Positions 26,634 through 40,342 of a DNA stretch of 64,000 nucleotides are shown in pieces. The position numbers and the translations under genes were made by a program. Positions within the stretch are counted from its first letter, which is position 1; each line of letters begins with the position of its first letter. The DNA lies in contig JAHBVS010000001.1 in NCBI GenBank assembly GCA_019637445.1, positions 1 to 64,000 on the forward strand, given 5' to 3'. Under the pieces are notes generated by a model. It did no database searches. It was not told the origin of the DNA and saw nothing but the letters and a program-made list of their open reading frames with translations. This stretch comes from Gemmatimonadaceae bacterium (GTDB lineage Bacteria > Gemmatimonadota > Gemmatimonadetes > Gemmatimonadales > Gemmatimonadaceae).

Positions 26634-26652
26634 CCTCGTGTCCGTGGGACGG

Positions 26653-27336
26653 ATGGAAGGGACGGACGTTAAGATATGGCCCGTGCCACGTCCCGAAATC
26701 ATTGCCCACCGCGGCGCCTCCCGCGAGGCCCCGGAGAACTCCCTCGCGGCATTCCAGCGTGCCGCCGACCTGGGGGCCGACGGCGTCGAATTGGATGTCT
26801 ACCTGCATCCGGACGGCGTGCTGCGCGTGCACCACGACCCCATCGCCGAGGACGTCCTCTCGGAGCACGCCTCCCCTGACGGCCTCCGAGCCCCTGCTCC
26901 ACCGACGCTCGACGAGGCCTTGACCCTGCTGCGCGACGCCGGCCTCACGGCCTACTGTGAGCTCAAGGGGCCGCACACGGCGATTCCGACGCTTGAGCTC
27001 ATCCGCCGCGCTGGCGGCCCCGCGGCCGTCCACGCGTTCGACCACCGGAAGATTGCCGAGGCGCGCGGCCACGCCCCCGAGGTGCCGCGTGGGGTGCTCG
27101 AGGTGAGCTACCCGATCCATCCGCTGCAGGCGCTGAGCGCCGTCGAAGGCCGTGACCTCTGGCGCCAGTGGCCCTTTGTCGACGCAGCGTTGGTTCAGGC
27201 GGCGCACGCCGCGGGCTGCCGGGTGGTCGCCTGGACGGTCAACGACCCCGCAGTGATGCGCGGCTTCGCCGACATCGGCGTGGACGCGATCTGCACGGAC
27301 GATCCCGCGCTCGCCATCCAGGTGCTGGGGCCGTAA
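26653..27336 (+). CDS. Glycerophosphodiester phosphodiesterase
   Basis: GDPD-family enzyme that hydrolyses glycerophosphodiesters to glycerol 3-phosphate and an alcohol. Motifs: EIIAHRGASREAPENSLAAF with catalytic His and Arg, GADGVELDVYLHPDGVLRVHHDP with metal Glu/Asp and His, then CELKG and the late AWTVNDP. It has no signal peptide, so it is cytoplasmic. The start is uncertain: ATG 26653 gives 227 residues. A GTG at 26683 starts right at the conserved core, seven bases after a TAAGAT box, and would suit a leaderless transcript. Confidence 0.9.
   Translation: MEGTDVKIWPVPRPEIIAHRGASREAPENSLAAFQRAADLGADGVELDVYLHPDGVLRVHHDPIAEDVLSEHASPDGLRAPAPPTLDEALTLLRDAGLTAYCELKGPHTAIPTLELIRRAGGPAAVHAFDHRKIAEARGHAPEVPRGVLEVSYPIHPLQALSAVEGRDLWRQWPFVDAALVQAAHAAGCRVVAWTVNDPAVMRGFADIGVDAICTDDPALAIQVLGP
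26668..26677. promoter_or_regulatory. Shared bidirectional -10 region between ECF sigma gene and GDPD gene
   Basis: The AT-rich island GTTAAGATAT reads TAAGAT on the plus strand and TATCTT on the minus strand. Both fit the TAnnnT -10 pattern and they face the two divergent genes. Expression of one gene could therefore interfere with the other. No good -35 is seen on either side. Confidence 0.4.
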
Positions 27337-27427
27337 ACTCTCCTTCCCCACTTCGACAGTCATCGCTCGCGGGCGCGCCCGTCGCGCCCCGCCTCTCCAC
27401 CCGTTCCATCAGAGGATGGTGCTTCCG

Positions 27428-28858
27428 ATGCGATTCGTTCGATCAGCGCTGGCACTCGTGGTCGCAGGATGTGCCACGGCGCCCGCCGCCCAACGCCCAA
27501 CACCGAGCGGCGCCGCGCCTTCTGCCACCGCCGCGACTACGACCCCGCCGGGCGCCTACTCGCGCCCGAACGCGGACCCCTTCCCCAGCACGTACCGGCC
27601 GTTCGCCTCGCGGACGACGCTGATCCGCAACGTGCACATCTTCACCGGCGTCGGCCCGCTGATGCGCAACGCGTCCATCCTGCTGCAGGATGGCAAGGTC
27701 GCGGCCATCGGCAGCAACGTGACCGCCCCGACGGACGCCGTGGTGATCGACGGACAGGGCAAGTACGTCACCCCAGGGCTGATCGACACGCACTCGCATC
27801 TGGGTGTGTATCCGGCGCCCGGGGGGCCGGCCCACGACGATGGCAACGAACTCACGAATCCGGTGACGGGCTACGTCTGGGCCGAACACTCGGTCTGGCC
27901 GCAGGACCCGCAGTTCCCGCGTGTGCTCGCGGGCGGCACCACCACGATCCAGGTGCTGCCGGGCTCCGGCAATCTCATCGGCGGCCGCAGCGTCACGCTC
28001 AAGGTGGTGCCGGGCCGCTCGGTGCAGGACCAGAAGTTCCCGGGCGCGCCGTACGGGCTCAAGATGGCCTGCGGCGAGAATCCCAAGCGCGTCTACGCCA
28101 GCCGCGGGCCGGCCACGCGGATGGGCAACGTCGCCGGTTACCGCAACGCCTGGATCGCCGCCGACCGCTACCGCCGGACCTGGGACAAGTGGTTGGAGAA
28201 GCAGGAAGGCGATCCACCGCCGCGTGACCTCAACCTCGAGACGCTCGCCGAGGTGCTGCGCGGCAACATCCTGGTCAACAATCACTGCTACCAGGCCGAC
28301 GAGATGCTGGTGATGATCGGCATCGCCAAGGAGTTCGGCTATCAGATCCGCTCCTTCCATCACGGGGTGGAGGCGTACAAGATCGCCGACGTGCTGGCGC
28401 GCGAGGGAATCTCGGCCAGCATCTGGTCCGACTGGGGCGGATTCAAGATGGAGGCCCTCGACGGCATCAAGGAGAACGTCGCGTTGACGCACCTCGCCGG
28501 CGTGCGCGCCGTGGTGCACTCGGACGACCCCTCGTACTCGCAGCGCCTGAATCAGGAGGCCGCGAAGTCGCTGGCCGCCGGCCGGCGCGTCGGGCTGCAG
28601 ATCAGCGACGAGGACGCCATCCGCTGGATCACGCTGAATCCGGCCTGGGCGCTGGGCATCGACGACAAGGTCGGCTCGCTGGAAGTCGGCAAGAATGCGG
28701 ATGTCGTGCTTTGGAGCGGCCACCCGTTGAGCGTGTATTCGCGCGCCGAGCGCGTGTGGATCGATGGCGCGCAGATGTACGACCGCAACGATCCGCGCCA
28801 GCAGTGGCGCACGGACTTCGAACTCGGCTACGTGCCGACCGCCGGGGGGAACCGCTGA
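27428..28858 (+). CDS. Secreted amidohydrolase, metal-dependent (imidazolonepropionase-like)
   Basis: Amidohydrolase superfamily protein of 476 residues with a lipoprotein-type signal (ALALVVAGC). The TIM-barrel metal site looks complete: LIDTHSHLG (HxH), NNHCYQADEM, RSFHHGVEAY and VVHSDDPS with the Asp. The composite beta-sandwich closes with GSLEVGKNADVVLWSGHP. Related secreted enzymes act on dipeptides or other amides; the substrate here is unknown. An in-frame ATG at 27416 is possible. Its stop shares a base with the start of the next, related gene. Confidence 0.9.
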   Translation: MRFVRSALALVVAGCATAPAAQRPTPSGAAPSATAATTTPPGAYSRPNADPFPSTYRPFASRTTLIRNVHIFTGVGPLMRNASILLQDGKVAAIGSNVTAPTDAVVIDGQGKYVTPGLIDTHSHLGVYPAPGGPAHDDGNELTNPVTGYVWAEHSVWPQDPQFPRVLAGGTTTIQVLPGSGNLIGGRSVTLKVVPGRSVQDQKFPGAPYGLKMACGENPKRVYASRGPATRMGNVAGYRNAWIAADRYRRTWDKWLEKQEGDPPPRDLNLETLAEVLRGNILVNNHCYQADEMLVMIGIAKEFGYQIRSFHHGVEAYKIADVLAREGISASIWSDWGGFKMEALDGIKENVALTHLAGVRAVVHSDDPSYSQRLNQEAAKSLAAGRRVGLQISDEDAIRWITLNPAWALGIDDKVGSLEVGKNADVVLWSGHPLSVYSRAERVWIDGAQMYDRNDPRQQWRTDFELGYVPTAGGNR

Positions 28859-30159
28859 TGCGCGCCCACTCGAAGTGGCGCCGTGCGGCGCTCACGTTCC
28901 TCGCCGCCACCGCCCCCGTGGCGATGGGGGCCCAGACAGTCGCCATCACCGGCGGCACCGTGTATCCGGTCAGCGGCCCGAAGATCGACAACGGCACCGT
29001 ACTCATCCGCGACGGACGCGTGGTGGCTGTCGGGGCCAATGTGCAGATCCCCTCCGACGCGCAACGCGTGGACGCGCGGGGCAAGTGGGTGACGCCCGGA
29101 TTTATCAACAGCGCCACCACGCTCGGCCTCTCCGAGGCGGGCAGTCCGCAGTTCTCGGGCGGCTACAACGATGTGGGGGCGCGCGGAGAGCACGGCATCG
29201 CCGCGTCGTTCGAGGCCTGGCGCGGCATCAATCCCGCCAACACGTACATCGGACCGTCTCGCGCCGAGGGCGTGACCAGCGTCGTCGTGTTTGGCAATGG
29301 CGGGATGCTGAGTGGCAAGTCGGCGCTGCTGGACCTGGTCGAGGCTCGCCAGGTCGGCGAGATGGTCCGCAAGGCACCGAACGCGATGCTGGGCACGTTC
29401 GCAAATCCCGGCAGCGGCAACACGAACTCGCGCGGTGAGTTCTGGGCCCGCTGGCGCAGCCTGATGAACGACGTGCGTGCATACCAGTCGCGGCGGGCCG
29501 CGTACGAGAATGGCGGCACGCGCGAGTTCATGGCCCGCCAGCAGGACATGGAGGCGCTGATTCCGGTGCTCGCCGGTGAGCTTCCCCTGGTGCTCGAGGT
29601 GGATCGTTCCTCGGACATCCTCGAGGCGCTGGCCTTTGCCCGCGAGTTCGGCATCCGACTCTGGCTTGGCGGCGCCGCCGAGGGCTGGATGGTCGCGCCG
29701 GAGATCGCCGCGGCGCGCGTGCCGGTCTTCGTCGGGGCGATGAACAACATCCCCGGCGACTTCTCCTCGCTCGGCAGCCGCCAGGAGAACGCGGCCCTGC
29801 TCCGCCAGGCCGGCGCGACCGTGATCCTGATTGGGAACGGCCCCGGTGACCCGAACTCGTTCAACGTCCGCAACATCCGCCAGGAGGCGGGCAACGCGGT
29901 GGCCTACGGCATGAGCTGGGAGGATGCCCTGCGTGCGATCACCTTGGTCCCCGCCGAGGTGATGGGCGTCGCCGACCGCATTGGCTCGATCGCCGCTGGC
30001 CGGGATGCGAATCTGGTGATCTGGTCGGGTGATCCGTTCGAGTTCAGCTCGGTGGCGGAGCGCGTGTGGGTCCAGGGCAAGGAAGCCACGCAGCCATCGC
30101 GGCAGCAGCAACTCTTTGAGCGGTATCGGACGCTGCCGGGAGGGCCGTATCGGCCGTAG
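28858..30159 (+). CDS. Secreted amidohydrolase-like pseudoenzyme (metal ligands missing)
   Basis: Paralogue-type partner of the preceding gene, 433 residues, with a signal peptide ending near AMGAQ. The beta-sandwich and fold signatures are kept (ITGGTVYPVSGPKIDNGTV, GKWVTPGFINSATTLGL, IGSIAAGRDANLVIWSGDP). The HxH motif is replaced by NSATT, the His-bearing strand segments read LVLEVDRSSDI and LWLGGAAEGW, and no His or Asp sits in the VILIGNGPGD segment as in the sister. It is therefore probably non-catalytic, acting as a binding or partner subunit, or uses other chemistry. It is coupled to the active sister by TGATG. Confidence 0.86.
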   Translation: MRAHSKWRRAALTFLAATAPVAMGAQTVAITGGTVYPVSGPKIDNGTVLIRDGRVVAVGANVQIPSDAQRVDARGKWVTPGFINSATTLGLSEAGSPQFSGGYNDVGARGEHGIAASFEAWRGINPANTYIGPSRAEGVTSVVVFGNGGMLSGKSALLDLVEARQVGEMVRKAPNAMLGTFANPGSGNTNSRGEFWARWRSLMNDVRAYQSRRAAYENGGTREFMARQQDMEALIPVLAGELPLVLEVDRSSDILEALAFAREFGIRLWLGGAAEGWMVAPEIAAARVPVFVGAMNNIPGDFSSLGSRQENAALLRQAGATVILIGNGPGDPNSFNVRNIRQEAGNAVAYGMSWEDALRAITLVPAEVMGVADRIGSIAAGRDANLVIWSGDPFEFSSVAERVWVQGKEATQPSRQQQLFERYRTLPGGPYRP

Positions 30160-30184
30160 TTCGGTGTTCTAGCTGGGAACGACA

Positions 30185-30318
30185 TTGCCTCAGAGGCACA
30201 GAGACACAGAGAACTCCAACGACAACTGCCTTTGAAGGGGACTCGCGGGCGGATTCCTGCGAGGCGGCCCTCCTAGGGAGCGGTTGCAGTCCTCTGTGTC
30301 TCTGTGCCTCGTTGGCAA
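30185..30318 (+). repeat. Palindromic repeat copy A (134 bp)
   Basis: The copy starts with GCCTCAGAGGCACAGAG and ends with the inverted CTCTGTGTCTCTGTGCC; its outermost bases TTGCC/GGCAA also pair. The centre contains the family core from TGCCTTTGAAGGGGAC to CTGCGAGGCGG, in the same orientation as copy B. It begins 26 bases after the second amidohydrolase stop and ends about 63 bases before the next gene. It contains no credible coding sequence. Confidence 0.85.
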
Positions 30319-30381
30319 CGCAGTTCAGAAACCATCGCCGTCCGGAAGCCGTAAGGGTGCACAGACCAAGGAGGTCCGCCC

Positions 30382-30744: not shown

Positions 30745-30874
30745 CCACAGAGGCACAGAGACACGGAGAACTGCAACGACAACTGCCTTTCAAGGGGACT
30801 TACGGGCAGACCCCTGCGAGGCGGACCCCCCAGAGAGCAGTTGCAGTTCCTCTGTGCCTCTGTGCCTCTGTGGC
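30744..30874 (+). repeat. Palindromic repeat copy B (131 bp)
   Basis: This is the cleanest copy. The left arm GCCACAGAGGCACAGAG continues to AACTGCAAC, and the right arm is its inverse from GTTGCAGTT to CTCTGTGCCTCTGTGGC. Terminal inverted repeats are about 35 bases with few mismatches. Between them lies the core with TGCCTTTCAAGGGGAC and CCCTGCGAGGCGGACCCCC. On RNA it would form a long hairpin directly after the stop codon of the small gene. Confidence 0.87.
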
Positions 30875-40093: not shown

Positions 40094-40342
40094 GCCACAG
40101 AGGCACAGAGACGCAGAGACCTGCGGATCCGGGAGCCATCGCGGGTGCGGGACAACTGCGAAAGACGATGCGGAGCCTGCAACCGCGTTCTTTGGGGGTC
40201 CGCGCCGCAGCGATCTGCGCGAGAGACCACCTTTAAGGCATTTCTCGTTGAGGCTGCCGTTCCCGCACCGCCGTTCGGGGTTGCCCGCATTCGCCAGTAT
40301 TCCCCGCATCCGCACTTCTCTGCGTCTCTGTGCCTCTGTGGC
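40094..40342 (-). repeat. Palindromic repeat copy C, expanded form (249 bp)
   Basis: The outer arms GCCACAGAGGCACAGAGACGCAGAG and their inverse are the family arms (outer 17 bases GCCACAGAGGCACAGAG). The family core is present on the minus strand (TGCCTTAAAGGTGGTC to GCGGACCCCC, around 40190-40240). Extra segments of 50-60 bases separate the core from both arms and include GATGCGG-like words. It fills the space between the convergent CotH-like and recQ genes. Short ORFs ending in SASLCLCG on both strands are translations of the arms and are not genes. Confidence 0.82.

Follow-up and report, generated by a model that had tools for sequence, protein, structure and literature searches.

A degenerate amidohydrolase retained beside its active-type sister in Gemmatimonadota: probable non-catalytic subunit of an exported enzyme

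RESULTS

Two overlapping amidohydrolase genes

The stretch of DNA analysed here (the window, 64,000 nucleotides from a Gemmatimonadaceae bacterium) carries two adjacent genes of the amidohydrolase superfamily on its forward strand. Gene A (27428–28858, with a second in-frame ATG at 27416) encodes an active-type amidohydrolase and putative lipoprotein, and gene B (28858–30159) is an uninterrupted ORF of 433 codons whose product is an apparently exported pseudo-amidohydrolase. The TGA of gene A (28856–28858) shares its last base with the ATG of gene B in the sequence TGATG (28856–28860), and stop–start overlaps of one or four bases were found in 62 of 91 deduplicated A–B loci. A GDPD-like ORF, assigned by its own sequence and position, lies upstream on the same strand (26638–27336). 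A wrong frame or sequencing artefact was ruled out for gene B, as its open frame is kept in the relatives.

Both products score above the curated thresholds of PF01979 and PF07969 (56.8 and 58.7 bits for A, 47.8 and 49.7 bits for B, respectively), and both have the Thermotoga maritima amidohydrolase 3ooq as their best solved relative over nearly the full length. The match of A to 3ooq has E=8.7e-72, while that of B covers residues 30–410 with E=8.4e-45, the next-best solved structure reaching only 6.8e-10. Judged by eye, A has the lipobox LVVAGC and B has a Sec-type leader ending in AMGAQ, which fits the original prediction that the two proteins are secreted. An automated count found the lipobox pattern in 22 of the 51 tested A rows, with visible misses that make the pattern unreliable, and 42 rows were without the anchor motif.

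Metal-ligand positions kept in A are replaced in B

Loci for comparison came from a search for relatives (the 30 best matches, the window among them) and from a genome scan of the best 80 of 116 relatives. Merging of identical proteins reduced the 107 A and 109 B sequences to 93 each, or 94 each with the window. The ligand positions of A were presumed from the motifs of the superfamily and from invariance, rather than from the 3ooq coordinates, and K211 is presumably the bridging lysine. In A, numbered as in P0002 with the codon at 27431 as residue 1, the candidate positions are HSH at residues 121–123 (27791–27799, within T-H-S-H), K211 (28061–28063), H285 (28283–28285, N-N-H285-C-Y), H311 (28361–28363, F-H-H311-G) and D365 (28523–28525, H-S-D365-D). 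According to the alignment, B has A-T-T at residues 86–88 (29113–29121, within S-A-T-T) instead of HxH, L178 (29389–29391) instead of K211, E247 (29596–29598) instead of H285, G272 (29671–29673) instead of H311 and N327 (29836–29838) instead of D365; all of these lie on the forward strand.

H121, H123, K211, H285, H311 and D365 are kept in 89, 89, 90, 93, 94 and 94 of the 94 A rows, respectively, and all misses are gaps (four at K211 and one at H285). The corresponding numbers for the A residue in the 94 B rows are 0, 1, 0, 0, 0 and 5, with 23 gaps at D365, and HxH was found in the corresponding segment of none of them. Thus A has the HxH and the His, His and Asp of a catalytic metal-dependent amidohydrolase and B does not, as had been predicted for B and for its sister at 27428, and orthologues of B with intact ligands, which would have spoken against that prediction, were not found among the 94 rows. 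An alternative metal site was also sought in B through conserved His or Cys, but no column of either residue reaches 80% among the 94 rows, and a His/Cys site was rejected for this reason. The protein itself is well conserved, with 25 invariant columns in 84 sequences that are 45–75% identical to the window protein. Loss of the catalytic residues from a conserved protein is one mark of a pseudoenzyme, and B shows it.

A and B travel together

A lies upstream in 107 of the 109 scored B loci, and the other two (L050 and L057) end at contig ends. In 249 genomes sampled evenly from the phylum and searched with cut-offs of E<=1e-130 for A and E<=1e-60 for B, A was present in 99 and B in 105. B was found in all of the 99 A-bearing genomes and was located directly downstream of A on the same strand in 97, of which 96 were counted by script and the other is G162, where the genes overlap by 4 bases. 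Together with the TGATG overlap, this adjacency upholds the tight coupling of the two genes that had been predicted. The non-adjacent exceptions are G054, in which A and B are on separate contigs, and G031, in which a partial extra A separates them. This additional segment of G031 (L203, 4900–5613) is a partial copy of the C-terminal part of A; it matches at 80% identity across 504 nt and sits downstream of the complete A gene, ahead of B. Six of the 105 B-matching genomes were below the cut-off for A; two of these do have A (whole in L204, cut by the contig end in L205), and the B matches of the remaining four, only 33–37% identical, look by sequence like paralogues of the B2 type described below. 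Neither the comparison of the 99 genomes nor its follow-up turned up a B without A.

The pair occurs only sporadically in other phyla. B was detected at 1e-60 in 4 of 119 genomes sampled around a locus from an acidobacterium (in one case at 39% identity only) and in 1 of 78 genomes around an eremiobacterial locus, and plasmids of the sphingomonads Novosphingobium and Qipengyuania carry A–B with the same live and dead residues. The recurrence of a live-plus-dead pair across the phylum suggests that the dead member is not junk but a functional subunit.

A paralogous cluster contains fused live and dead domains

The same genome has a second cluster (G000:C2:1733-5915), in which a 998-residue protein combines a degenerate domain (D1) with one of the active type (A2), and the next gene (B2) encodes a degenerate protein of its own; genomes with this cluster have two dead copies per live one. 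Among 50 such loci (the 30 best search matches and 20 chosen stretches), the order D1–A2–B2 was found in 49, the exception being L202 with a split match to D1. D1 and A2 form one chain in 44 of the 50 loci as counted by script, leaving L202 uncounted although the two are in the same frame there as well. A2 and B2 are joined in two loci, where a linker replaces the leader of B2. The fusions are a property of this paralogous triad and not of A–B itself, and their occurrence in both pairings is a classical sign that a dead domain functions next to a live one.

Among the 49 D1 rows, H121 is kept in 31 and D365 in 37 but H311 in none, which makes a stepwise decay possible; by this pattern, the ligands may have been lost one after the other. 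The D1 of L153 (1552–4437, reverse strand) retains H-A-D and an Asp like D365, and its degeneration is therefore partial, in contrast to that of B and B2. On a Hymenobacter plasmid (L121, 5878–10296), a cluster resembling D1–A2–B2 is split into several frames.

The degenerate proteins form one clade

For the phylogenetic trees, the A and B rows were first reduced by an identity filter and the B of L120 was added by hand, and domains shorter than 300 residues (D1 of L202 and the broken pieces of L121) were excluded. Four stand-alone relatives (Bacillota and Actinomycetota plasmid records) served as root; the FastTree analysis included all rows and was rooted on one of these proteins, and the IQ-TREE analysis included 74 rows. 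B, B2 and D1 were recovered as one clade and A and A2 as another, with FastTree supports of 0.995 and 0.999, respectively, and UFBoot 100 for both in IQ-TREE. All four stand-alone relatives keep every ligand position, and no second homologue was seen beside them in the stretches examined. These trees place B in an old pseudo-amidohydrolase clade that appears as sister to the active one. The mean root-to-tip distance is greater for the pseudo branches (1.69–2.49 vs 1.40–1.45 for the active ones), so long-branch attraction is possible, and faster evolution may in part draw the pseudo clade together.

Structure models

The A–B chain of L035, modelled by reading through the stop of A, gave a pTM of 0.50 with a confident B half and a poor A half, the latter because only 6 alignment rows cover A, and it therefore counts neither for nor against an A–B complex. 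The B half has the amidohydrolase barrel fold: 372 of its residues align with 3ooq (Z 46.9, 28% identity, rmsd 3.1), far ahead of the next entries with Z of about 25. With the Pfam matches and the sequence match to 3ooq, the model bears out the view that B has retained the fold. The natural D1–A2 fusion from the window's own genome was modelled with 44 D1–A2 rows at a mean pLDDT of 87.3 and a pTM of 0.83. We read this 962-residue chain as two barrels and a linker domain, in which the position of the dead barrel with respect to the live one is predicted to be well determined, pTM being a global measure.

Neighbouring genes and a repeat element

Neighbours were counted in the 78 loci that contain both genes (L010–L089 minus L050 and L057). 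The commonest on the same strand belongs to the GDPD family, named from one representative (L042) and found upstream in 34 loci, and the window seems to have it as well; it is probably incidental and outside the function of A–B, and it is uninformative about peptides. An M16 peptidase homologue immediately precedes A in 20 of the 78 loci. The HxxEH position of these adjacent M16 genes holds other residues in 18 of 19 aligned sequences and is a gap in L072, whereas the M16 gene located further upstream, seen in 10 loci, has HLFEH. In loci from the L065–L088 range (e.g., L065, 3–1400 and 1124–3532), an active M16 is followed by a motif-less M16 fused to DUF3108, and A–B come next. To judge from the motifs, an active/inactive M16 pair precedes the active/inactive amidohydrolase pair in those loci. 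In Qipengyuania, a gene annotated as a peptide MFS transporter lies directly upstream of the A–B pair. Given the M16 pair and this transporter, our best guess is that A–B process peptides after export, and a peptide-like substrate can be put forward tentatively.

A dispersed inverted-repeat element lies just after gene B (30177–30326 of the window) and recurs at 30750–30868 and 40100–40336. Its 44-nt arms are 82% complementary, with an RNA fold of -88.5 kcal/mol (z -6.7). The core has 93 copies in the genome vs 13 for a reversed control, often in inverted pairs about 150 nt apart, and the same element is found directly downstream of B2 (L009, G000:C2, 1480–1646).

DISCUSSION

The role of B

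Our results suggest that A and B probably form an exported enzyme in which B is an obligate subunit without catalysis of its own, with a structural or substrate-positioning task. A duplication in the ancestor of the exported 3ooq-like branch would have given rise to a lineage that kept the barrel and lost the metal site. B would be co-translated with A, exported, and assembled with it in the cell envelope, most likely as an A–B heterodimer or A2B2. A would then hydrolyse the substrate, and B would be the half on which A depends for structure or for positioning of the substrate, comparable to the inactive chain of M16B enzymes. We infer both the physical complex and the dependence of A on B. 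The original prediction had envisaged a complex of one active and one regulatory or binding chain. The complex is favoured indirectly by co-occurrence (99 of 99 genomes), adjacency (97 of 99), the fusions among the paralogues and the D1–A2 model, and B may regulate A, bind the substrate or act as a scaffold only.

Gene overlap and co-occurrence also fit proteins that serve one pathway without touching each other. B might be an envelope protein whose former active-site pocket captures a signal, or else what A uses or produces, without stable contact with A. The barrel columns of B do stay conserved, E275 and W277 being invariant and N297, R308 and N311 present in at least 95%, and these five residues would line the pocket according to their place in the sequence rather than to coordinates. 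However, the sister cluster joins dead to live domains in single chains, and the model of such a fusion has good overall confidence; we regard such a binding protein as unlikely. If A and B were separate homo-oligomers held together by operon selection only, the operon layout, which alone is no sign of contact, would look the same, and the L035 model, with its pTM of 0.50 and six rows over A, lends no support to contact either. The overlap, the strict one-to-one retention and the homologous fusions nevertheless speak against this arrangement, which seems very improbable.

A change of chemistry is also to be considered, in which B would be an enzyme with a metal-free or carboxylate-only site. 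B has conserved acids (D205, D253, E275, E395 and E401), and AibH1H2 exemplifies new chemistry on the amidohydrolase fold (PMC7782822). Nevertheless, His and Cys are conserved nowhere in B, and B did not occur without A in the genome comparison and follow-up, which leaves this explanation a little behind the binding protein in likelihood. Ligand loss, taken alone, would suit a decaying duplicate without function, but the frame is open, 25 columns are invariant over 84 sequences and B is retained in every A-bearing genome. Conservation and retention rule out pseudogene decay, since no A-bearing genome is without B (0 of 99, with the two genes adjacent in 97), and a functionless duplicate is hardly credible. 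The reading of B as a non-catalytic subunit of the A–B enzyme is therefore preferred.

A broader and considerably more speculative proposal is that B, B2 and D1 make up an ancient family of pseudo-amidohydrolase subunits of exported heteromers (A–B and D1–A2–B2), and that in part of the phylum A–B is the second stage of a peptide operon, after the active/inactive M16 pair. If this is true, two consecutive live/dead enzyme pairs act in one peptide-processing operon. With its pairs and triads, and with fusions in either order, the family offers a large natural set for asking why enzyme families keep dead copies as partners. Annotation would also gain, as Pfam calls B simply an amidohydrolase and the dead copy in Qipengyuania is not marked as such by the names given in RefSeq.

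Comparison with known systems

In the alignment of A with 3ooq, the latter keeps the HxH and H/H/D motifs like A, and B is without them. We found no description of this A–B pair in the open-licence PMC literature, where absence is weak evidence, and by term counts amidohydrolases go unmentioned in a review of pseudo-metallopeptidases. In the amidohydrolase superfamily, such dead partners have been described, as far as we found, only in other branches (AibH1 and pseudo-DHO).

The pseudo-dihydroorotase (pseudo-DHO) of Pseudomonas ATCase is described as an inactive chain of amidohydrolase fold that is needed for the activity of its partner (PMC7053772). The partner there is ATCase, whereas the gene paired with B encodes an amidohydrolase of the active type at 107 of the 109 loci. 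We take the pseudo-DHO of Pseudomonas to be cytosolic.

M16B enzymes (SPH2681/SPH2682, TTHA1264/TTHA1265 and MPP) are presented as heterodimeric peptidases whose active form consists of two homologous chains, one of which has the zinc motif (PMC12731061). They are an analogy only for A–B, although such a pair precedes A–B in some relatives. The M16B fold is unrelated to the amidohydrolase fold.

AibH1H2 of Rhodococcus wratislaviensis consists of adjacent amidohydrolase-superfamily proteins in a heterotetramer with one non-catalytic yet essential chain; the stable alpha2alpha'2 complex is reported to work as a diiron monooxygenase that has ferredoxins as partners, and AibH1 to bind Zn (PMC7782822). 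A and B are likewise encoded by adjacent superfamily genes, one of which (B) is without the catalytic ligands. Unlike AibH1 with its mononuclear metal site, B has no ligand position left, and, again unlike AibH1H2, A and B look exported and B falls into the 3ooq-like branch. Thus heteromers of live and dead chains are already known from M16B, AibH1H2 and pseudo-DHO, and, as far as we found, what is new here is a member, B, that has lost the whole metal site and belongs to the 3ooq-like branch.
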